A stretch of DNA of 64,000 nt from Bradyrhizobium lupini (GTDB lineage Bacteria; Pseudomonadota; Alphaproteobacteria; Rhizobiales; Xanthobacteraceae): positions 3,038,001 through 3,102,000 of the forward strand of contig NZ_CP162553.1 of NCBI RefSeq assembly GCF_040939785.1. The letters are read 5' to 3'. Under the pieces are notes generated by a model. It searched no databases and was not told the DNA's origin. It saw only the letters and a list, made by a program, of their open reading frames with translations. Below are positions 9,586 through 21,675 of the stretch, one piece after another. How positions within the stretch are numbered: position 1 is the first letter of the stretch; each line of letters starts with the position of its first letter. The translations under genes and the position numbers were made by a program.

Positions 9586-11817
9586 TTATTTCGTCAGCAG
9601 CGCATAGGCCCCGGTCCAACCTTCCGGCGGTGGATTGACCTGGAATTCCTTGATGCGCACTTCATAGAGCTTGAACAGCTTTTCCAGCGTGTCGGCATCC
9701 TCGCTCCTGCGGCCGCGGTCGATCGCGTCCAGCGCGCCCTGCCAGTCGCGGCTGCGATAGCAGGCGAGCATTTCGATGGTGACGTTGCGCAGCCGCTGGA
9801 AGGCGCCTGAAAGCATCACATCCTCGCGGCCGGCGATGGCATAGATCACCTCCGGCTCGGTCTTGCCCTTGACCATGATGAAGTCGAGTTCGAGGATCGC
9901 GAACTTGTCCTTGGCCGCGAGCGCGGTGCGCGAGCCAACGATAATGGGAAAGCCGTATTCCTTCGACTGGCCTTCCAGGCGCGAGGCCAGGTTGACGCTG
10001 TCGCCGAGCACCGAATAGTTCTTCTTCAGGTCGGAGCCCATGTTGCCGACGACGCCGATGCCGGTGTTGAGACCGATACCGACATTGAGCGGGATGTAGA
10101 CGTGACCGCCATCAATGGCCTCCTGCTCGCGGTCCTTGTTGACCGCGTCGATCTTCTCCAACATCTGGATCGCGGCCTCACAGGCGTTGACCTCGTGCTC
10201 GGCATCGTCGAGCGGCGCATTCCAGAACGCCATGATGGCGTCGCCCATATATTTGTCGATATAGCCCTTCTGATCGATGATCACGTCGGTCAGCGGAGTC
10301 AGGAAGCGGTTCATCAGCGCGATCAGGCCCTGCGGATCGTGCTTGTAGGTTTCCGATATGGTGGTGAAGCCGCGCACGTCGGAGAACATGATCGTCATTT
10401 CGCGCTCCTCGCCGCCGAGGACGAGTTTTTCCGGTGACTGCGCGAGTTGCTCGACCAGCACCGGCGACATGTATTGCGCGAACATGCCGCGGATCTGCAC
10501 GCGCTGGCGCTGCTCGCGCACGAAGCTGGCGAAGATTAGCGTCAGATAGATCGCGGTGGTCGAGAGCAGCGGATAAGTGAAGTCGATGAGATAGCGGTGC
10601 TGCGCATAGAAGAACCAGGACACTCCGATCAGGATAGCGGCGAAGGTCGCGCCGGCAAGCACGAGGCGAACTGGTCCGAGGTTCGGCGTGAAGATGATGA
10701 CGAGCAAGCCGATGACGAGCGCGGCGAGCAGCTCGACGCCGAGCGCATAGTTCGGCTGGGAGATCACCGCGCCGCTCAGCACGCTCTCCAGCACCTGGGC
10801 GTGGATCTCGACGCCGGGCATGGTCGAGGACACCGGCGTGGTCTTGATGTCGTTGAGCCCAACCGCCGAGGTGCCGATCAGCACCAGCTTGCCGGCGATC
10901 TTGTTAGGCGGCACCGTATTGTCGAGCACGTCGGCGGCCGAGACGTAGATCGAGGGATCCTGGCGCGCGTAATGCACCCAGAGCTGACCGTTCCTGTCGG
11001 TTGGGATCTCCACGCCCTTGAGACGCACGGCCCGCACGCCGGTCTTGTCGGTCCGAACCAGCAAGGTCGGCGTGCCCGTGACGACGCGCAAAATCTCGAG
11101 GCTCAGCGAAGGCATGACCATGCCCTGGGCGCGCATGATCATCGGCACGCGCCGGATCAGGCCGTCGCGCTCGGTCTTGATCGAGAACAGGCCGCGGCCG
11201 GCCGCGACCTTCTCGATCTCGGGCACGTTGCGCAACAGCCCGGGAAATTCGAACAGGAAGCGCTCAGCGCCCTCCTCGCCGACCGTCGCGACGCCGGTGA
11301 AGGGCAGCGACTTGTCGACCTCGGACGAAATCGCCCGCTGCCCAGTCTCGCCCAGGATCACGCGCGAGCGCTTGATCGCTTCGGAGAGGATCTGGTCGTT
11401 GCTCGGCAGCTCGCGCAGCTTGGCGCGGGTGGCGTCGTCCAGGTAGCGCATCTGGCTCGCGACCAGATCCGGGTTGAGCCGGTCGGCCTCCGAGAACACG
11501 ACGTCGAAGCCGATCGCCACCGCGCCGTGACTGGTGAGGTTCTGGATCATGTCGGCGATCCGCGTCCGCGGCCACGGCCACTGGCCGAGCTTGGCGAGGC
11601 TCTTGTCGTCGATGTCGACGATGGTGACCGGCCGCGCCGTCTTGTGGCGCGGATCGATCAACTGAAACATGTCGAACGTGCGCAGCCGCAGTTCCTGGAT
11701 CGGAGGCGGATCCCAGAGCCGAGCGCCGGCAAATACGACCAGCAGCGCAAGGCACATCAGCCGCGCAAACCCGAACTTGCGCGCAAACCACCGCCGCAGG
11801 ATCTTGAGACGTTTCAT
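9586..11817 (-). CDS. CHASE2-domain class III adenylate/guanylate cyclase
   Basis: A 743-residue membrane sensor that should make cyclic nucleotide in the cytoplasm. A short N-terminal membrane helix (about 18-34) leads into a large extracytoplasmic CHASE2 domain (about 38-350; TARPVTIVDIDDKSLAKLGQ, IGFDVVFSEAD). Three closely spaced membrane helices follow (about 355-430). The cyclase catalytic domain (about 455-640) has the metal-binding FSDVRGFTT and the GDAIMAFW and SVLGDSVNLASRLEG motifs, so it should be active. About 100 further residues follow. CHASE2 cyclases are abundant in Bradyrhizobium; the ligand is unknown. Downstream of the adhesin on the same strand but separated by 79 bases, so co-transcription is possible. 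Confidence 0.93.
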   Translation of the reverse strand: MKRLKILRRWFARKFGFARLMCLALLVVFAGARLWDPPPIQELRLRTFDMFQLIDPRHKTARPVTIVDIDDKSLAKLGQWPWPRTRIADMIQNLTSHGAVAIGFDVVFSEADRLNPDLVASQMRYLDDATRAKLRELPSNDQILSEAIKRSRVILGETGQRAISSEVDKSLPFTGVATVGEEGAERFLFEFPGLLRNVPEIEKVAAGRGLFSIKTERDGLIRRVPMIMRAQGMVMPSLSLEILRVVTGTPTLLVRTDKTGVRAVRLKGVEIPTDRNGQLWVHYARQDPSIYVSAADVLDNTVPPNKIAGKLVLIGTSAVGLNDIKTTPVSSTMPGVEIHAQVLESVLSGAVISQPNYALGVELLAALVIGLLVIIFTPNLGPVRLVLAGATFAAILIGVSWFFYAQHRYLIDFTYPLLSTTAIYLTLIFASFVREQRQRVQIRGMFAQYMSPVLVEQLAQSPEKLVLGGEEREMTIMFSDVRGFTTISETYKHDPQGLIALMNRFLTPLTDVIIDQKGYIDKYMGDAIMAFWNAPLDDAEHEVNACEAAIQMLEKIDAVNKDREQEAIDGGHVYIPLNVGIGLNTGIGVVGNMGSDLKKNYSVLGDSVNLASRLEGQSKEYGFPIIVGSRTALAAKDKFAILELDFIMVKGKTEPEVIYAIAGREDVMLSGAFQRLRNVTIEMLACYRSRDWQGALDAIDRGRRSEDADTLEKLFKLYEVRIKEFQVNPPPEGWTGAYALLTK

Positions 11818-11896: not shown

Positions 11897-14800
11897 TCAG
11901 GCATGGACGATGAAGTCGCTCGCCTGGAGGTGGGCGACACCCTTCAGAAGGATGGTGTCCGAAGCGTTGATCGTGACCAGGGTGTCAGCGGAATTGGTCG
12001 GCGAAGCCGCCACGTGCTGCGCCATCCATGCCCCAAAATCGCTGGCGGTCACGACTGCCGACAAGTCGATATGGTCCTGACCGGGCGTGAAATTGGTGAT
12101 CGTATCGTTGTTGGAACTGGCGGCGAACACGAACTGGTCCTGATGGCCTGTCCCGATGAAGTCATCTTGCCCGGCCGTGCCAAAGAGCAGGCTAACCGTC
12201 TTGCTTGCGTTGTGACTGTCGGCCACGGTGAGCGTGACCGTCTGTATGGCCGCACCTTCACTTGCATCAGTGTAGGTCACGGTCTGCAGCGCGGAATTGA
12301 TATGCGCCAAGGTATCTGACGTCGACGCCGGACTCAAATTGCTACCCGAGCCGGAAGCAACGAGCGTGAAGGTTTCATTGGCAGCCGCATCGGAGTCGGT
12401 GGCCGAGATACCGTGCACAGTGACTTGAGCGCCGTCATGCGTGAGGCTGATCTGGTTGACGTCCATTACCGGCGCATCGTTCGCGCCGTCCACGTCCACC
12501 GTGAGTATCGCAGTGCCGGCCGCGCCATGCGCGTCCGTCGTCTGGACCGTAAACGTATCCGCGAAGGGCCCTTCTTGCAACGCGTTGATCGCAGCCGCGT
12601 CGGGAACGTAGGTGTAGCTGCCGTCAGAGTGGACCGTCAGCGCGCCGTAGTGTCCTGGAGCCGTCCCGCAACTATCCGCATTCTGGACAGAATAGGTCAG
12701 CGTCACCGTCTCGTCGGCATCGGCGTCGGTGCCCGCGAGATTTCCGGTGAGATTGGAGAAGGTGTCGGTCGCCGCCGTGTCCGTAAGCTTGCCGAGGTTG
12801 AGAGCGGACAGCGTTGGCACGTCGTTGGCGCCCGTCAGGTCCACCGTGTATATCGCCGTGGAGGCGGCGCCATGTGCATCCGTGACCTGGACCGTGAAAC
12901 TGTCGGAATAGTGCAAGCAGCCCGGCAGCGCGTTAATCGAAGCCGCATCGGGAACGTAGGTGTAGGTGCCGTTCGTGTTGAGCGCCAGCGCGCCATAGTG
13001 ACCCGTGACCTCTCCGACTGCCTGGTGATCTGCGTTCAGCAAGGTGTAGGTCAGCGTATCGCCGGAGTCGGCATCGGTCCCGACCACCTGTCCGGTGAGG
13101 TCAGAGAAATTATCCGCTGCGCACGTATCGGTGAGCTGCCCGATGCTACCATCGGTCAACACCGGAGCGTCGTTGGCGCCTGTTACGGCAACCGTGAATG
13201 ATGCCGTGCCGACAGCACCTTGCGCGTCCGTGGTCTGAATCGTGAAGACGTCCGAACAAGGGCCTTCCGAAAGCGCGTTGATCGAAGCCGCATCGGGAAC
13301 GTAGGTGTAGGTGCCGTTCGCGTTGACCGTCAGCGAGCCGTACAGGCCAGCCGTCGTCCCATGACTATCCGCGTTCAGAACGGCATAGGTCAGCCCCGCC
13401 GTCTCTCCATGGTCGGCGTCGGTTCCGACCAGCATTCCCGTGACGTCCGAGAAGCTGTCGGCGATGGAGGTATCGACGAGCGGATCCGTGGTGACCGCGG
13501 CCAAGGTCGGCGCGTCGTTCTTGCCTGTGATCGTGACCGTGACGTCGGTTGTGGCGGTCTCGCCGTAATCGTCCGTGCTCGTGATGGTAGAAACCACCTT
13601 CGCGGTCTGGTCCTTGGCGAGGAAGTCCAGCGCGCCGTCGGCGATCGAATAGCTCCAGGTGACGATGCCATTGTTCAGCCCGGCCTGCGGCAGAAGCGTC
13701 AGCCCGCTCTTGAGCGCCGCGATCTCGTCAAGCGAGAGCGACGAGGTGAGGTTAGTGCTGTGATCGGCGCCAAGCGAGGTCACGTCCTGGCCGGTGATCT
13801 GTGCCGACGGCAGGTCGGTCAGGTCGATGTCGGTGAAGTCAATCGCGCCGGTCGCAGGCGTTGAGGTATCGGAGGTGGCGAAGTCACCGGTGGCGTCCGC
13901 CTGCTCGGAGACGCCCCCCGCCAGCACGCCGCCGGCGGTGAAGGCCGGGGCGTGGTCATCGGTCATCGTGATCAGCGTGTGGCCAGTGCCGTCGTCGCTC
14001 CCGGCGAAATGGGCATTGCTGTAGTCGGCGCCGGCCAGGTTCAGGCTGATGTGATTGCCGTCCGCATCGGTCACCGTCAGCACGCCGCCGGTCGCGGGAT
14101 TGGAGTTTGCAACATAGACCGCGCTGGTGCCGAGCCCGTATTTGATCGTCGACAGGTCGATCGTGTCGTTCGCCGACAGCTCCGCGATCGATCCGCCGAA
14201 CGTATCCGTATCGATCTCAACCGCGGCGCCGTCGCCCGCGAGGTTGATCGTCTGCGCGACCGTGCCTTCGAGCTTCAGCAGCGCACCGGCATCGACGGTG
14301 ACCGAGCCCGTGCCGGTCAGCAAGCCGAACAGCGACAGCTCGCCATCATGGACCTCGATGCTGCCGGTATTGCTGATGGTGCCCGAGATCGACGCCGTGC
14401 CCCAGCTGTCGATGTGGCTGTGATTGACGAGTCCAGGCCCACCCAGGGAGATCGAGGCGCCGTTGAGGAGATCGATGACACCGTCATTGACGATCGACGA
14501 CGCATTGCCGAAGGCGCTCGTGCCGGCGACCGTCCAGGTGCCGCCGGACTCGTTATTGAAGGTCGCGCTGGCGACCGAGATATTGCCGTTGATGTGGCCG
14601 GTGTTGTTGATCGTGAGGCTGCCACCGATCTCGATGATCGCGTCGGTCGCGGAGGTCACGCTCGAAGCGGCGGGCGGCCCGATGGTGCCGGAATTGTTGA
14701 TCACCGAACCGGTCGTATCCTGCTGGATGTGGATCGCCGCATTGCCACCGGCGCCCACGATGGAGCCGGAATTGACGATGTGGATCGAACCGGTCGCGCC

Positions 14801-17800
14801 CGAAAACTCCAGCGTCGCGCCAACATCGACGATTACCTTGCCTGAACCGGCGATGCCGCCCGCAAGGTCGAGAATGCCGCTCTGGACCTCGATGATGCCA
14901 GTGTTGGTGACGCTGCCCGTGACCGTATCGACGCCGGCGCTGTAGAGATTGCCGGCATTGCTCAGGCTGCCGCCGTTGATCGAAACGTCGGTCAGATAGA
15001 GCTTCGAGGTGCCGTCGACCGTGATCGACCCAGCACTGCTGTTGCTAACGGTGAGATTTGCCAGCTTCAGCGTGCCGTGGTTGACTGCCTCAAGAGCCGC
15101 AGTGTTGGAGATATCCTCACCGGAGACGTCGAGCACGCCGCCCTTCGCCTGAATGAGATTGTGATTGGTGATGGCGTGAAGCGTGGCGGGATCAATCGTC
15201 AGCGTACCGCTGGTGACCGTGATCGTGCCGGTGTTGGTAATGTCGGCATTGTCGATGGCGCTGGTGCCGGTCGATTCCAGCGTACCGGCAATCGTCACCG
15301 TGCCGCCGTCGATGGTCGCGCCCTGAAGATCGAGTGCCGAGCCGGACTCGACCGAGACACTACCGCTGCCGGTGTCGGTCACCGTCATCCCGATCAGCTT
15401 CAGTGTCCCATGATTGATCGCCGCCAGCGTGCCGGTGTTTGCGATGGCTTCGCCGTTGATGTCGAGCTCGGCGCCATTGGCCCTGAGGATGCCGCCATTC
15501 GCGATCGAGCTTGCGGAGGTCGTCGCCAGCAGCGTCAACGCGCCCAGGGTTGCCTCGATCAGATAGTTGTTCGAGATGTTGGCGTCGGTAATCGCAGTTG
15601 TGCCGGTCGAATTCAGCGTGCCCGAAACGGTGAGCGCGCCGCCTGTCAGGCTCGCACCGTTCAATGTCAGCTTGCTGCCTGCATCGACCTTGACCGTGCC
15701 ATGATTGGCGATTGCGGTGCCCGCAACTATCACGTCATCCAGCGTCAGGATGACGCCGCTCTCGACCGTCACGGCAGTGGTGCTCAGCGTCGCCGATTGA
15801 TCGATCTTGCTGGCGCCGGTGACATCGATCGTGCCGAGACCGTTGATCGTACCACCGCTGATCGTCGCGCCGTTAACTGTCAGCTTGCCGTTGGCATCGA
15901 CCGTGACGTTACCGGCATTCGCGACCGTCGAGCCCTGGTCGATCGTCAGCGCGCCATTCGTCAGCACCTCGATCGTGCCGGTGCTCGCATTCGTGATCGT
16001 CTCGTGGTCCAGCGCGTTGCCGGTGCCGCTGACCTTCAACGCCGCGTTGTTGTTCAGGATGCCGCCGCTCAGCACCGCAGCGCCGGTCAAATCGATCTCG
16101 CCATTGCCGGTGACCGTGCCGGTGCCGTTGATCGTCGCCCCGTTGACCGTCAGCTTGCCGTTGGCATCGACCGTGACGTTACCGGCATTCGCAACCGTCG
16201 AGCCCTGGTCGATCGTCAGCGCACCGTTCGCCAGCACTTCGATCGTACCGGTGCTCGCGTTCGTGACCGTCTCGTGGTCCAGCGCGTTGCCGGTGCCGCT
16301 GACCTTGAAGGCCGCGTTGTTGTTCAGGATGCCACCGCTCAGCACCGCAGCGCCGGTCAAATCGATCTCGCCATTGCCGGTGACCGTGCCGGTGCCGTTG
16401 ATCGTCGCCCCGTTGACCGTCAGCTTGCCGTTGGCATCGACCGTGACGTTACCGGCATTCGCGACCGTCGAGCCCTGGTCGATCGTCAGCGCACCGTTCG
16501 CCAGCACTTCGATCGTGCCGGTGCCCGCGTTCGTGATTGTTCCATGGTCTAGCGCGTTACCCGTGCCGCTGACCTTGAAGGCCGCGTTGTTGTTCAGGAT
16601 GCCGCCGCTCAGCACCGCAGCGCCGGTCAAATCGATCTCGCCATTGCCCGTGACAGTCCCGGTACCGCTGATCGTGGCGCCGTTAACTGTCAGCTTGCCA
16701 GCGGAATCGATCGTGACGTTGCCGGCATTCGCGACAGTCGAGCCCTGGTCGATCGTCAGCGTGCCGTTCGCCAGCACCTCGATCGTGCCGGTGCTCGCAT
16801 TCGTGATCGTCTCATGGTCGAGCGCGTTGCCGGTGCCGCTGACCTTGAAGGCCGCATTGTTGTTCAGGATGCCGCCGCTCAGAACCGCGCCGCCGGTCAG
16901 ATCGATCTCGCCATTGCTGGTGACCGTACCGGCACCATTGATCGTGGCGCCGTTCACCGTCAGCTTGCCGTTGGCATCGACCGTGACGTTGCCGGCATTC
17001 GCAACCGTCGAGCCCTGGTCGATCGTCAGCGCGCCGTTCGCTAGCACTTCGATCGTGCCGGTCGTCGCATTCGTGATCGTTTCGTGGTCCAGCGCGTTGC
17101 CGCTGCCGCTGACCTTGAAGGCCGCGTTGTTGTTTAGGATGCCGCCGCTCAGCACGGCAGCGCCGGTCAGGTCGATCTCGCCGTTGCCGGTGACAGTCCC
17201 GGCACCGTTGAGCGTGGCGCCATTGACTGTCAGCTTGCCGTTGGCATCGACCGTGACGTTACCGGCATTCGCGACCGTCGAGCCCTGGTCGATCGTCAGC
17301 GCGCCGTTCGCCAGCACTTCGATCGTGCCGGTGCTCGCATTCGTGACCGTCTCGTGGTCCAGCACGTTGCCGGTGCCGCTGACCTTAAAGACCGCGTTGT
17401 TGTTCAGGATGCTGCCGCTCAGCACCGCAGCGCCGGTGAGATCAATCTCACCGTTGCCGGTGACCGTGCCGGTGCCGCTGATCGTGGCGCCGTTGACCGT
17501 CAGCTTGCCGGTGGCGTCCACCGTGACGTTGCCGGTGTTGGCGACGCCGGAGCCCTGGTCGATCGTCAGCCAGCCATTCGCCAGCACCTTGATCGTGCCG
17601 CCGGACGTGTTTGCGACGGTCTCGTGGGCGAAATCCGCCGTGCCCTTGACGTTGACCGCCCCTGAATTGTTCAGCGTGCCGTTCTTGAGGACGCTGCTGC
17701 CGTCGAGTTCCAGCTTGCCGGCGATGGTGACCGTGCCGCCGCTGATGGTGGCGGTGTCGACGATCAGCGTCGTGCCGGCATCGGCCTTCAGCGTGCCGCC

Positions 17801-20335
17801 GGCATTGTTAATTCCGGCGAGCGTCTTCAGCGTGCCGCCGAACAGCTCGATCGTGCCGGAATTGGTGATTGTGGTGCCGTTGGCGAAATCGCCGCCGCCC
17901 TTGAGCGTCAGGTAGCCGGCATTGGTGAGGACGCTGCTGTCCAGGAACTCAGCCTTGCCACCAACCGAGATCGTGCTTGCCGTGAAATTGGTGAGCTTCG
18001 AATCGGCCTTGAGGCTGATCTCGCCCGCAATCGTCAACGCACTCTTGTTGATGACTTCCGGCGCCTTGTGGCCGACCGCGGTGTCGTAGTCGTTCATCGT
18101 GATCGACTTGGCAAAGGCTGCCGTGTCGATCGTCACCGGATAGGACGGCGTCAGCCCATGCAGCTGGTCGGTGATGACGATGACGTCGTCATTGATGGTC
18201 GGGACCGTGCCGGTTGCCCAGTTGGCCGCATCCTTCCAGAAGCCGCCCGAGGGAGCGCCGAGCTTGTCGGTCGCGATCCACACCACGGCGGGAGCGTCGG
18301 TGCCGGTGATCGTGACGGTGATGGTCTGCTGCGAGGTGGCGCCTTGCGCGTCCTTGAGCGTCACGGTGTAGACCAGCGTCAGCACCTCACCCTTGGGGAT
18401 GAAGTCGGCGAGATAGACCGGCAGGTCAGCCAGCGACCAGTTGATGGTGCCGGTGCCGTCTCCGGTGCTATCGGCGCCCGCCGCGATCGCGACCGACATC
18501 GCGCTCTGGAACGCCGCAAGCGGCCCCGGCGGAACGGTGCCGTCAGGCAGGGTCGCGCTGCTCAACGCCACCGACACCGTATGCTTGTCGGTGAGATCGA
18601 CGTCGTCGAAGCTCAGCGTGCCCGACGTGGGAACATCGCTGGTGAGCGGGCCACCCGGCACGCTGGTGCCGCCTTCGAAGATGATGGTCGGAACGCTGGT
18701 GGTGATCACCGGCTTGTCGTTGGTGCCGGTGATCGTGATGGTGATGTCGATGGTCGACGTTTCGGGATTGACCGAGAAATTATTGTTGACGCGGACCTTG
18801 TAGGTCAGCGTCAACGTTTCGCCCGCCGCGAGGAAGTCGAAGACGTGGTCGGGAATCGTGTAGGTCCAGACCGCCGAGCCGTTGTTGTTGTTACCGGCGG
18901 CTGCGGCCACGCTGAGCTGGATCTGCGTTGCCGCGATGTCCTGCTTCTGGAGCGCAGAGAGCGCGCCGGTGACATCCTGCTGGCCGGCGTTCTTGTAGAC
19001 AAAGTTCGGCGCATCGCCGAGGTCTATGCTCACCGTTGGCAGATCGGCCAGGTTTTGATCGACGAAGGTGATGCGACCGGAGATGGTATCGTAATGAGTT
19101 GTGTCGCCGGTCGTGCCCGCGCGCTCGATCATCTCGAACGCCGTCTTCACATTGCCGTTGAGATCGAGGCTTCGACGAACGGGCGGGCCGGGAATGCGGG
19201 TGCTGGTCGACGGATTATGGCCGGTCCCCTGCGATCCCGGCTCAGGGAGATGCGTGAAGGTCGCGGTCGCGGTGGCACCGGTATCCGTCTTGATGAAGAC
19301 AATGTTGCCGGTCTGCGTGATCGAGTCGGTGAAGTTCTGGGTCAGCTTGGTGTTGCTGTTGTTGTCCGTGAACTTCAGCGTGAACACGTCCGTGATCAGC
19401 TTCTGGATGTCCGGCGACATCAGCGCATTGGAGATCGAGACGTTGCCGCCGCTGATCTGGATCATCTGGCCGGCCTGGTTGACCGTCGCGATCGGCAGCA
19501 GCGTGACCTTGTCGAACAGGATGTAGGAGCCCGTCGTGCCGTTCGGCTCGACCAGCACCTGGAAGCTTGCCTGCGGCTGCGGATCGCCGCCGCCAGCGGG
19601 AACGACGAAGTTGATCTGGCTCAGCACCGCCGTACCGCGGATGCCCATGGTGGCGACCGGCGTGTCGACCTTCATGTCGCCGTGCTTAGCGGTCTCACCG
19701 GCAACGAAAGTGATGGTGCCTGCGACCAGACTGAGCAGAGAGGAATTGTTCGACCCGTTGGGGTCGTAGACCATATCGTTCAGCACCATCCGCGCATTGG
19801 AGGACAGGCCGAACACCGTGCCGTCGATGAACGTAATGCCGAGCGTCGAGTCGCCGCCGGTCGAGACCACGTCGCCCTTCTCGACGTTGTCGCCATTGTT
19901 CAGGATGACGGAGACGCCGTTACGGACCGCGGTCGCGCTGCCGGAGAGCTTGGTGACGTGGCCGATGACCTGCGCGGCGGCAATGCCTGAGGCGGCCTGC
20001 GCGTATTGCACATGGCCGGTGAGTGCGTTGACGACGTCGCCGGTGAGGTGCGCGCCGTCGGGCGAGGCGATCGCCGCGCGCTTGTCGCCCCTGAAATAAT
20101 CGTGAACGACGAAATCGTGCCCATCATGAGACAGCACGAGATCGAGACCGGCGCGCTTGAAATCGCCGTTGAAGATCAGGTTCGGGTCGGGAACCACGAA
20201 TGCGCCATCGGGCACGTGGCCGTGTGCCTTCGCAGTAAAGGAATCGACATGGCCATCGGCGGGCGATCGGGAACCCAAGCCGTCCAAGGAAATCGCGGCG
20301 TCAAATTTGCCAGCGTAATTCAATCCGGGCACCAA
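11897..20335 (-). CDS. Giant repeat adhesin: FecR-like N-terminus, beta-helix repeats, VCBS/cadherin-like repeats, type I secretion C-terminus
   Basis: A 2812-codon predicted surface protein without a Sec signal. Residues about 100-250 look FecR-like (VRNGVSVILNNGDNVEKGDV, FIDGTVFGLSSNARMVLNDM). Cadherin/VCBS-type domains ending ITGTND follow (about 390-690), then a long beta-helix-like region including seven near-identical 90-residue repeats (about 930-1490). Further divergent repeats and three VCBS units with GTYTYVPDAA (about 2280-2620) come next. The last ~100 residues have an RTX-like GTGHQDQF motif and the DTITNFTPGQDHIDLSAV segment of T1SS targets. The start is uncertain: the annotated TTG (20335) has no Shine-Dalgarno sequence. 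No T1SS transporter genes are nearby. Likely role: attachment or biofilm. Confidence 0.85.
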   Translation of the reverse strand: MVPGLNYAGKFDAAISLDGLGSRSPADGHVDSFTAKAHGHVPDGAFVVPDPNLIFNGDFKRAGLDLVLSHDGHDFVVHDYFRGDKRAAIASPDGAHLTGDVVNALTGHVQYAQAASGIAAAQVIGHVTKLSGSATAVRNGVSVILNNGDNVEKGDVVSTGGDSTLGITFIDGTVFGLSSNARMVLNDMVYDPNGSNNSSLLSLVAGTITFVAGETAKHGDMKVDTPVATMGIRGTAVLSQINFVVPAGGGDPQPQASFQVLVEPNGTTGSYILFDKVTLLPIATVNQAGQMIQISGGNVSISNALMSPDIQKLITDVFTLKFTDNNSNTKLTQNFTDSITQTGNIVFIKTDTGATATATFTHLPEPGSQGTGHNPSTSTRIPGPPVRRSLDLNGNVKTAFEMIERAGTTGDTTHYDTISGRITFVDQNLADLPTVSIDLGDAPNFVYKNAGQQDVTGALSALQKQDIAATQIQLSVAAAAGNNNNGSAVWTYTIPDHVFDFLAAGETLTLTYKVRVNNNFSVNPETSTIDITITITGTNDKPVITTSVPTIIFEGGTSVPGGPLTSDVPTSGTLSFDDVDLTDKHTVSVALSSATLPDGTVPPGPLAAFQSAMSVAIAAGADSTGDGTGTINWSLADLPVYLADFIPKGEVLTLVYTVTLKDAQGATSQQTITVTITGTDAPAVVWIATDKLGAPSGGFWKDAANWATGTVPTINDDVIVITDQLHGLTPSYPVTIDTAAFAKSITMNDYDTAVGHKAPEVINKSALTIAGEISLKADSKLTNFTASTISVGGKAEFLDSSVLTNAGYLTLKGGGDFANGTTITNSGTIELFGGTLKTLAGINNAGGTLKADAGTTLIVDTATISGGTVTIAGKLELDGSSVLKNGTLNNSGAVNVKGTADFAHETVANTSGGTIKVLANGWLTIDQGSGVANTGNVTVDATGKLTVNGATISGTGTVTGNGEIDLTGAAVLSGSILNNNAVFKVSGTGNVLDHETVTNASTGTIEVLANGALTIDQGSTVANAGNVTVDANGKLTVNGATLNGAGTVTGNGEIDLTGAAVLSGGILNNNAAFKVSGSGNALDHETITNATTGTIEVLANGALTIDQGSTVANAGNVTVDANGKLTVNGATINGAGTVTSNGEIDLTGGAVLSGGILNNNAAFKVSGTGNALDHETITNASTGTIEVLANGTLTIDQGSTVANAGNVTIDSAGKLTVNGATISGTGTVTGNGEIDLTGAAVLSGGILNNNAAFKVSGTGNALDHGTITNAGTGTIEVLANGALTIDQGSTVANAGNVTVDANGKLTVNGATINGTGTVTGNGEIDLTGAAVLSGGILNNNAAFKVSGTGNALDHETVTNASTGTIEVLANGALTIDQGSTVANAGNVTVDANGKLTVNGATINGTGTVTGNGEIDLTGAAVLSGGILNNNAALKVSGTGNALDHETITNASTGTIEVLTNGALTIDQGSTVANAGNVTVDANGKLTVNGATISGGTINGLGTIDVTGASKIDQSATLSTTAVTVESGVILTLDDVIVAGTAIANHGTVKVDAGSKLTLNGASLTGGALTVSGTLNSTGTTAITDANISNNYLIEATLGALTLLATTSASSIANGGILRANGAELDINGEAIANTGTLAAINHGTLKLIGMTVTDTGSGSVSVESGSALDLQGATIDGGTVTIAGTLESTGTSAIDNADITNTGTITVTSGTLTIDPATLHAITNHNLIQAKGGVLDVSGEDISNTAALEAVNHGTLKLANLTVSNSSAGSITVDGTSKLYLTDVSINGGSLSNAGNLYSAGVDTVTGSVTNTGIIEVQSGILDLAGGIAGSGKVIVDVGATLEFSGATGSIHIVNSGSIVGAGGNAAIHIQQDTTGSVINNSGTIGPPAASSVTSATDAIIEIGGSLTINNTGHINGNISVASATFNNESGGTWTVAGTSAFGNASSIVNDGVIDLLNGASISLGGPGLVNHSHIDSWGTASISGTISNTGSIEVHDGELSLFGLLTGTGSVTVDAGALLKLEGTVAQTINLAGDGAAVEIDTDTFGGSIAELSANDTIDLSTIKYGLGTSAVYVANSNPATGGVLTVTDADGNHISLNLAGADYSNAHFAGSDDGTGHTLITMTDDHAPAFTAGGVLAGGVSEQADATGDFATSDTSTPATGAIDFTDIDLTDLPSAQITGQDVTSLGADHSTNLTSSLSLDEIAALKSGLTLLPQAGLNNGIVTWSYSIADGALDFLAKDQTAKVVSTITSTDDYGETATTDVTVTITGKNDAPTLAAVTTDPLVDTSIADSFSDVTGMLVGTDADHGETAGLTYAVLNADSHGTTAGLYGSLTVNANGTYTYVPDAASINALSEGPCSDVFTIQTTDAQGAVGTASFTVAVTGANDAPVLTDGSIGQLTDTCAADNFSDLTGQVVGTDADSGDTLTYTLLNADHQAVGEVTGHYGALALNTNGTYTYVPDAASINALPGCLHYSDSFTVQVTDAHGAASTAIYTVDLTGANDVPTLSALNLGKLTDTAATDTFSNLTGNLAGTDADADETVTLTYSVQNADSCGTAPGHYGALTVHSDGSYTYVPDAAAINALQEGPFADTFTVQTTDAHGAAGTAILTVDVDGANDAPVMDVNQISLTHDGAQVTVHGISATDSDAAANETFTLVASGSGSNLSPASTSDTLAHINSALQTVTYTDASEGAAIQTVTLTVADSHNASKTVSLLFGTAGQDDFIGTGHQDQFVFAASSNNDTITNFTPGQDHIDLSAVVTASDFGAWMAQHVAASPTNSADTLVTINASDTILLKGVAHLQASDFIVHA
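15850..17570 (-). repeat. Tandem 270-bp repeats inside the adhesin gene
   Basis: A recognisable anchor (CGTTGACCGTCAGCTTGCCG or close variants on the plus strand) recurs at 15871, 16141, 16411, 16681, 16951, 17221 and 17491, a period of exactly 270 bp (90 codons). The protein unit contains NAGNVTVDANGKLTVNGAT, a TGNGEIDLTGAAVLSGGIL segment and TNASTGTIEVLANGALTIDQ. Units differ by few bases, so copy number can change by recombination or be collapsed in assembly. Confidence 0.92.
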
Positions 20336-20396
20336 AAAAGGAGTTAAAATCTAAGTAAGTATCGCTTGCCTAAACTTGCATATCATTACCAAGTCC

Positions 20397-20531
20397 TTAG
20401 CGAAACCACCTATTGCTTGTGTGATTTCGCATCACCAAGCGGTCGATGCTCTCGGACGGCTGGGCACCTGCAGGGAAGTCAAAGTAATCTTTCAAATACT
20501 CATAAGTAAAGTAGCGCTTATTTTCGCTCAT
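20397..20531 (-). CDS. Possible small gene (44 codons) upstream of the adhesin, unknown function
   Basis: An open frame reading MSENKRYFTYEYLKDYFDFP, then AGAQPSESIDRLVMRNHTSN and WRFR-like end (WFR) before TAA at 20397. A GAGG lies about nine bases before the ATG at 20531; an in-frame ATG at 20546 is the alternative. The peptide looks protein-like (mixed charged, aromatic and amphipathic residues), but the codons are AT-rich, unlike the neighbouring genes, so it is either acquired, very lowly expressed or a chance frame. It ends 61 bases before the adhesin TTG on the same strand. I do not recognise the family. Confidence 0.33.
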   Translation of the reverse strand: MSENKRYFTYEYLKDYFDFPAGAQPSESIDRLVMRNHTSNRWFR

Positions 20532-20767
20532 TTTCAGTAACCTCATGTATTCTATTGCAGAAATCTGGCAATAGATACTTCTGTCATCTTTTGTTCGTGG
20601 TGCCCCGCACCACCCTGCGGCAAATACGGGGCCAAATCTGTGATCCAGCTAACAGAACTTGCGAAATAGCCAACCGTTAGCCACAGGGCGCAGAATCAGT
20701 TCCACGACAACTTCCGCCTGCGATTGGTCCCTCTTCGCGGCAACCGCCGCCCTCCTAGCGGGCGAAT

Positions 20768-20781
20768 CGTAAAATTTTACG
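20768..20781. promoter_or_regulatory. Perfect 14-bp palindrome, candidate operator
   Basis: CGTAAAATTTTACG is a perfect inverted repeat in the divergent region, 162 bp before the protease start and about 430 bp from the adhesin start. It stands out in otherwise GC-rich sequence. Dimeric regulators typically bind such sites; I cannot assign one. Confidence 0.4.
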
Positions 20782-20943
20782 CAATATGAGCAGGCCCGTT
20801 TCAGCCTGTTGCCCGGTTTTGGGACCCCAGCCGGGCGCGTTAAGCAGAACAAAACCGCCCGCCTCGCACTATCTCCGCGAAAGCAACAAAGCCCGGCACG
20901 TGCAGGTCGAGGGGGACCTGGCGAAGCCGGAAGGGGATGTCAG

Positions 20944-21675
20944 ATGGAGACCGCTGCTCGTTCGCGCGCTTGGCGCGCTATCCTTGTGCTGTGCGGATTG
21001 ATCCTACTCGGATCGGCCGCCGAGCTTCGCGCTGGCACGCTACTATCGCCGGGAGCCGGCGTCCTCGTGCGTAAATCCGCCGAGCCGTTCGGCGTGTTCG
21101 CCTTCGCCATCTCAGCCGGCAGCCTGCAAGAGAAATGGCTCGCGCTGAGGTCCAGGCTCGACGATGACATGGTGCAGCTCGCGCTGTGCGACGGCGACCG
21201 GAACAATTGCGCTTCGCCCGCTGCGCTGAAACTGCTCGCGATCGTCGACCAGGCCCGCAGCCGTGACGGCCGCGCCCGGCTGGGCGAAACCAATCGCGCC
21301 ATCAACCTCGGCATCCGCGCCGCCGATGACGGTTCTGAGGACGTCTGGAGCTCGCCGCTCGCGACCTTCGCGCGTGGCGCCGGGGATTGCGAGGACTATG
21401 CCATTGCCAAGCTCGCCGCTCTTAAGCTCGCGGGCATTGCCGCCGAAGATCTCCGCATCGTCGTGGTGCGCGACCTCAGGGCCGGCGAAGAGCATGCAAT
21501 TGCCGCTGCACGGCTCGACGGCCACTGGCTGATGCTCGACAACCGTCGCATGGCAATGGTCGAGGACGACGCTGCACGGAGCTACCAGCCGCTGTTCGTG
21601 CTCTACCAGTCGGCCGTGTTGAAATATGTCGACGAGCCCGTGCGGTTCTCGATGATCGCCGCCGAGGCGCGTTGA
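20944..21675 (+). CDS. Bacterial transglutaminase-like cysteine protease (BTLCP, LapG-like, Peptidase C93)
   Basis: A 243-residue periplasmic protease. Starting at METAARSRAW gives a clean Sec signal peptide (AILVLCGLILLGSAAELRA) preceded by a GGAAGGGGA ribosome-binding stretch; the frame is open further upstream but gives no leader. The catalytic set is visible: Cys in GAGDCEDYAIAKLAALK (about 150), His in EEHAIAAARLDGHW (about 184) and the LDN near 200. The DCED segment is the calcium-binding motif of the LapG group. In Pseudomonas, LapG cuts the N-terminus of the T1SS adhesin LapA to release it. Here it is divergently next to a giant T1SS adhesin, so a similar role is a reasonable inference. 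No LapD-like receptor is in the window. Confidence 0.88.
   Translation: METAARSRAWRAILVLCGLILLGSAAELRAGTLLSPGAGVLVRKSAEPFGVFAFAISAGSLQEKWLALRSRLDDDMVQLALCDGDRNNCASPAALKLLAIVDQARSRDGRARLGETNRAINLGIRAADDGSEDVWSSPLATFARGAGDCEDYAIAKLAALKLAGIAAEDLRIVVVRDLRAGEEHAIAAARLDGHWLMLDNRRMAMVEDDAARSYQPLFVLYQSAVLKYVDEPVRFSMIAAEAR

Follow-up and report, generated by a model that had tools for sequence, protein, structure and literature searches.

A conserved Bradyrhizobium cluster of a giant adhesin, a C93 protease and a CHASE2 cyclase suggests a variant of the Lap adhesin-release switch

In Bradyrhizobium lupini, the gene for a giant type I secretion system (T1SS) adhesin lies divergently to that of a BTLCP / Peptidase_C93 family protease and is followed by the gene for a receptor that joins a CHASE2 domain to a class III nucleotide cyclase domain. 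The window, that is, the whole stretch of 64,000 nucleotides that was analysed, is part of a single 7.83 Mb contig. The genomics of this locus is solid: secretion genes, an adhesin with a retention-type module and a CHASE2 cyclase form a conserved cluster, to which the C93 protease belongs in Bradyrhizobium and in one other lineage. This suggests a variant of a known adhesin-release switch in which the signal is cAMP instead of c-di-GMP. We give somewhat less than an even chance to the reading that the cluster is a Lap-like system for display and release of the adhesin, in which the CHASE2 class III cyclase replaces LapD.

In such a Lap-like system, the adhesin would be exported by the T1SS encoded just left of the window, its N-terminal beta domain and FecR-like module would be held in the periplasm, and the disordered linker would thread the outer-membrane channel. 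The periplasmic BTLCP would free the adhesin by a cut behind the module, at a site that is non-canonical, the CHASE2 cyclase would monitor either the protease or the module held there and make cAMP, and cAMP-CRP would act on the divergent adhesin and protease promoters via a conserved box.

Table 1. Features of the adhesin cluster in the window (adhesin residue numbers count from 20335)
Feature	Position	Strand	Remarks
CHASE2 receptor with class III nucleotide cyclase domain	9586..11817	-	743 aa; 79 bp downstream of adhesin
Giant T1SS adhesin	11897..20323	-	2808 codons from likely TTG start; listed frame 11897-20335
Variable linker	19151..19300	-	residues 346-395
Fairly conserved, predicted-disordered segment	19301..19369	-	residues 323-345; mean agreement 0.71 vs 0.47 for 346-395
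Helix behind retention module	19370..19414	-	residues 308-322; from model; mean agreement 0.90 for residues 306-322
FecR-like domain, probable retention module	19424..19972	-	residues 122-304
N-terminal beta domain	20021..20224	-	residues 38-105; model pLDDT 80-89 across residues 45-104; alignment; matched class-wide
Predicted CRP-type box TGTTAGCTGGATCACA	20639..20654	-	divergent intergenic stretch adhesin/protease
Palindrome CGTAAAATTTTACG	20768..20781		perfect; only copy in genome
BTLCP / Peptidase_C93 family protease	20944..21675	+	243 aa; hydrophobic N-terminus, signal-peptide-like by eye

Conservation of the cluster in Bradyrhizobium

When the protease, the adhesin and the cyclase were each searched in 60 Bradyrhizobium genomes, host included, each search matched all 60, the adhesin match in G016 being to a weak FecR only. 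Protease and adhesin were found on one contig in 56 genomes and were divergent in every one of these, with 474-696 bp between the matches. Thus, the divergent pair proposed in the first-pass annotation does exist and belongs to a larger cluster that is itself conserved, and conservation in related genomes, which had been set beforehand as a test of that proposal, was borne out. In 54 of the 56, the cyclase shared this contig; it lay at most 1 kb behind the adhesin frame in 51 of them and at most 150 bp in 49; gaps of 1.2-4.2 kb occurred in G003, G038 and G051. Adjacency could not be counted in G006, G016, G035 and G045, where the genes were on different contigs, and the cyclase was on another contig in G012 and G030. 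Among the 103 named relatives found for the protease, 80 were kept, all Bradyrhizobium records and one of these a Bradyrhizobiaceae MAG, and 78 of these loci have the pair, the remaining two (L168 and L192) lying near contig ends. The adhesin itself can be exchanged or absent: in G274 a different adhesin, with an N-terminus 48% identical, lies between protease and cyclase, and in G006 the protease adjoins the cyclase with no adhesin between them. The adhesin of G006, a relative with 5.0 Mb, is found elsewhere (L069 4198-12995), beside a C93 relative with DCKS for DCED and FecR- and cadherin-type genes.

It had been noted earlier that no T1SS genes were near the adhesin, which proved incorrect; such genes start 0.5 kb beyond the left end of the window and were therefore overlooked. 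With 736 bits, the ABC gene there, at C1:3035867-3037501, is the best PrtD-type match in the genome, and a HlyD-type gene follows it, so that T1SS ABC and membrane-fusion genes are indeed near the adhesin. Of 19 Bradyrhizobium stretches, 18 have both an ABC and a HlyD gene no more than 20 kb behind the cyclase, and L245 has neither. The gene order in G294 (L036), which belongs to a different genus of the family, is protease, then adhesin-ABC-HlyD-cyclase on the other side, and in three genomes from two other families of the order (L038; L046 and L048) ABC, HlyD, adhesin and cyclase stand in a row, the adhesin N-terminus of L048 being matched as a fragment only. No terminator-like site was found in the 79-bp gap between adhesin and cyclase, and one was found behind the cyclase.

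The listed adhesin frame is a single open reading frame of 2812 codons. Its start is likely the TTG at 20323, because the alignments of relatives begin at residue 5, where they mostly have L, else V or M. Among the 56 one-contig genomes, the length of the adhesin frame ranged from about 1390 to 6088 aa while the N-terminus and both neighbours stayed conserved; a shorter frame in G012, of 1280 aa, is cut off by the end of its contig. Big_9, Cadherin_4 and VCBS domains are found toward the C-terminus. Residues ~920-1475 (window ~15910-17570) consist of near-identical tandem repeats of 90 residues, in which an LTIDQGS-type motif occurs seven times at that spacing, and these repeats are perhaps the source of the strain-to-strain variation in length.

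The cyclase receptor, its relatives and the divergent promoter region

The receptor was matched by the Pfam models CHASE2 (211.8 bits) and Guanylate_cyc (75.1 bits) and retains D480, K522, D526, N609 and R613, which we take to be the residues that contact metal, substrate and transition state, and it can thus be placed among the CHASE2-class III cyclases by both domains and catalytic residues. Its CHASE2 domain spans residues 26-371. K522 together with S602 presumably fits an adenylate cyclase, i.e. ATP as the substrate, and adenylate cyclases were the best PDB relatives. Judged from these residues, the membrane receptor probably makes cAMP. In CHASE2 cyclases of three other lineages (L273, L274 and L278), Sel1 repeats were seen inside the cyclase domain.

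A possible target of cAMP is found in the stretch between adhesin and protease, where a predicted CRP-type box agrees with TGTGA-N6-TCACA at 9 of 10 positions. Of 76 intergenic sequences, from 75 named loci and the window, 74 contain TGTTA-N6-TCACA; the set excludes L208, L221 and L224, for which no stretch was obtained. The half-sites were 97-100% conserved, compared with three of the six spacer positions, which fell to 16-57%; other blocks of the intergenic stretch were conserved as well. When the stretch was put through 2000 simple shuffles, a one-mismatch TGTGA-N6-TCACA arose in 27, and genome-wide TGTKA-N6-TMACA occurred at 24 sites versus 5 for the reversed control. Within the 64-kb window alone, 2 one-mismatch matches versus 0.82 expected are not significant, and therefore the weight rests on conservation. 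In a more distant Bradyrhizobium clade, TGT[GTA]A-N6-T[CA]ACA was found upstream in 8 of 12 and was absent in 4. No CRP-type box was found in G294, in L224 or in any of 13 other loci tested; beyond the main set no adhesin was located in L123, L120, L121, L069, L071 and L073, and L137 and L138, with fewer than 40 bases upstream, are uninformative for the box. The same stretch contains the palindrome CGTAAAATTTTACG, which is exact in 55 of the 76 Bradyrhizobium intergenic sequences and is a candidate operator of some regulator.

The receptor class was followed further in 297 genomes of the order (cut-offs of E 1e-120 for the cyclase and 1e-35 for the adhesin N-terminus). The cyclase was found in 102 and the adhesin N-terminus in 21, 11 of these outside the family, and each of these 11 non-family genomes also has a cyclase, scoring 727 bits or more. 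The converse fails, as most of the 102 cyclase genomes lacked the N-terminus at 1e-35. The cyclase class is thus far commoner in the order than the adhesin and must have other partners too. Across the Alphaproteobacteria, the adhesin N-terminus was matched in 58 of 385 genomes, and 20 FecR-adhesin loci were chosen by hand among these matches, with long contigs favoured and several stretches ending at contig ends. A CHASE2 gene was present in nine of the 20, from seven families and with a cyclase domain in all nine, and was not found in the fetched stretches of the other 11, some of which end at contig ends; ABC and HlyD genes were present in eight.

These data bear on the strongest alternative, which we consider somewhat unlikely: that the CHASE2 cyclase responds to an unrelated signal from outside, such as one from a plant, and sets only the expression of adhesin and protease by cAMP-CRP with no contact to either, in which case LapG-like release would still be possible. 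The conserved CRP-type box and the many genomes that have the cyclase class without this adhesin would be expected under such a scheme. In Sinorhizobium meliloti, where the CyaD1/SMc02177/Clr set likewise has a CHASE2 cyclase gene near a FecR-domain gene and a cAMP-dependent Crp-family regulator, the accessible portion of PMC5498481 reports that CHASE2 cyclases respond to a plant signal and that the FecR gene is not required for its perception, which also counts against the Lap-like reading. The S. meliloti FecR (SMc02177) is a separate protein, the box is TGTT-N8-AACA, and that portion of the source (PMC5498481) makes no mention of an adhesin or a protease; this S. meliloti-type box was found in 0 of the 76 Bradyrhizobium intergenic sequences. 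Against the alternative, the cyclase gene is inside the adhesin cluster in nine of the 20 chosen class-wide loci, and FecR-type genes recur near CHASE2 receptors. For instance, of 16 less similar cyclase loci (L052-L067), 8 have a FecR-type match in their 18-kb stretch. In the BiofilmReg operon of Burkholderia contaminans, as described in the accessible part of PMC5192318, a FecR-domain gene is also found beside a CHASE2 receptor gene and a biofilm phenotype is reported, although the receptor is a histidine kinase and the FecR domain is fused to LysM rather than to an adhesin. That FecR genes occur near CHASE2 receptors irrespective of a cyclase or kinase output suggests contact in the periplasm.

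The retention module, the protease and release

The Lap-like reading also needs an adhesin that is held and cut. The core of the FecR-like module matched PDB 5ix9 by profile (E 6.4e-10) and by structure comparison (37% identity, rmsd 0.9 over 62 columns, TMt 0.76). We take 5ix9 to be the antifreeze-protein cell-surface anchoring domain of the Marinomonas primoryensis giant adhesin, and the FecR-like module is probably a retention module because it is related to this solved anchoring domain. The adhesin N-terminus thus carries the retention-module fold as judged by 5ix9 rather than by LapA's own module, and it resembles known anchoring domains, although the first-pass annotation had found it to differ from LapA. 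The core is common to both, whereas the Bradyrhizobium module follows an extra beta domain and extends into a FecR-like fold of ~180 residues.

A helix and a disordered stretch follow the module in the predicted structure, but no [T/A/P]AAG site is conserved. In agreement with the initial remark that no TAAG site was evident, no conserved di-alanine LapG site was found in the first ~555 residues, where [TAPS]AA[GS] occurred in 2 of 28 rows and at differing places. The predicted structure has pLDDT below 50 between residue 325 and the end of the model at 343, and we infer that the conserved segment of residues 323-345 is a candidate for recognition or cleavage by the protease, and the variable linker behind it a candidate for the stretch spanning the outer membrane. 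The conserved segment is absent from the adhesin of G294 (L036) and from the exchanged adhesin of G274 (L123), both of which have an adjoining protease; this counts against the Lap-like reading, as does the lack of a conserved di-alanine site.

The protease scored 52.7 bits with PF06035 (cut-off 27) and is therefore a member of the BTLCP / Peptidase_C93 family. As first described, its Cys/His/Asp and DCED motifs are intact: C149, H184, D199 and D148 were invariant across 36 protease rows, as were C82 and C89, and E150 and D151 were conserved in at least 90%. The model (pLDDT 83.5) had LapG structures (4fgq, 4u65) as its best structural matches, while the score with the NCBIfam LapG equivalog NF045674 was 55.7 bits, far below the curated cut-off of 320. 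The coding sequence probably starts at 20944, because the first 45 codons of the longer frame are interrupted by stops or a frame change in many relatives, which are open from the Met on. The ~120 bases before this start (window 20809-20943) are highly conserved as DNA though many relatives have stops in frame there; this stretch had no Rfam match and no unusual folding energy. A second C93 protease of the same genome is encoded at L099 7744-15093 (C1 ~837.7-845.1 kb), behind an ABC-HlyD pair and an 862-aa W_rich_C/Big protein, and this locus is perhaps a second adhesin-protease set.

Outside the family, relatives of the protease were weak (16 genomes, at most 112 bits), and by coordinates none in the order sample was beside a listed cyclase. 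Among the 20 chosen class-wide loci, two have a C93 protease, one of them perhaps a contaminant (L264 of G677 is possibly a contaminant contig), and 18 stretches, some ending at contig ends, show none. In G720 (L277), the cyclase and a BTLCP are encoded next to each other on the same strand, with open frames 35 bp apart, beside a divergent adhesin; this is a second pairing, from outside the family. Since the adhesin-cyclase link is more widely spread than the protease link, it is probably the older one.

It is improbable that the protease has another target, that the adhesin is never cut and that the neighbourhood is regulatory only. A model for this could be HvyA of Caulobacter, which the accessible part of PMC4241560 describes as a transglutaminase homologue that restricts capsulation. 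The missing conserved LapG site, the low NCBIfam score and the 18 class-wide stretches without such a protease all point in this direction. They are countered by the invariant triad and the near-invariant calcium motif, and by the pair being kept in 56 of 56 genomes, even with a different adhesin in G274, with another pairing in G720. We judge it very improbable that the cluster is a standard Lap system whose LapD, encoded elsewhere, went unrecognised, since, despite the presence of five C93 proteases in the genome and the fact that a very divergent periplasmic domain would escape such a search, a genome search with the LapD periplasmic domain PF16448 gave a HisKA_3 histidine kinase as its sole match. 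The output domains of LapD are GGDEF-EAL. The earlier observation that no LapD was near thus held, and of the Lap partners to be sought in the same genome the T1SS ABC and HlyD genes were found and LapD, sought by PF16448, was not.

Relation to known systems and implications

The Lap-like reading is closest to the LapA/LapG/LapD system of Pseudomonas fluorescens, which likewise comprises a giant T1SS adhesin, an N-terminal retention-type domain and a periplasmic C93 protease with a C-H-D triad and DCED. The Bradyrhizobium set differs in having no detected LapD and no conserved di-alanine site, and in having the extra N-terminal beta domain, a full FecR-like fold and a CHASE2-cyclase receptor. 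The idea of a LapA/LapG variant with a FecR-like retention module, already put forward in the first-pass annotation, remains the best supported, by the kinship with 5ix9, the helix, the disorder and the conserved pair; it had missed the CHASE2 cyclase as a likely LapD replacement.

A Lap-like set with another receptor has a precedent in DvhA/DvhG/DvhD of Desulfovibrio vulgaris, as presented in the accessible part of PMC13090378. There too the receptor is of other architecture, and the core of DvhG is only 33% identical to LapG (PMC13090378). In contrast to the Bradyrhizobium receptor, DvhD, with its dCache, PAS and HD-GYP domains, senses c-di-GMP, and a consensus cleavage site is predicted in both D. 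vulgaris adhesins (same part of PMC13090378). No publication on the present cluster was found by title or abstract start in the open-licence literature, a search that is not proof of its being unpublished, and the accessible part of PMC10574481 does not describe it.

A more specific form of the proposal, which we regard as rather unlikely, is a self-reporting adhesin, in which the CHASE2 ligand would be the retention module or a protease attached to this module, so that loading and cutting of the adhesin would set the cAMP level, with CRP feedback on adhesin and protease. If true, it would be an outside-in cAMP counterpart of the inside-out c-di-GMP control by LapD, in several alphaproteobacterial families, and would supply a ligand class for CHASE2 domains, whose recognition target was stated in 2016 as not known (accessible part of PMC5192318). 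In either form, the cluster makes a concrete CHASE2 ligand testable. The Lap-like reading would show that a cyclase can fill the receptor slot of Lap-like systems, and would connect attachment at the surface with cAMP signalling in a genus of central importance to the symbiosis of legumes.
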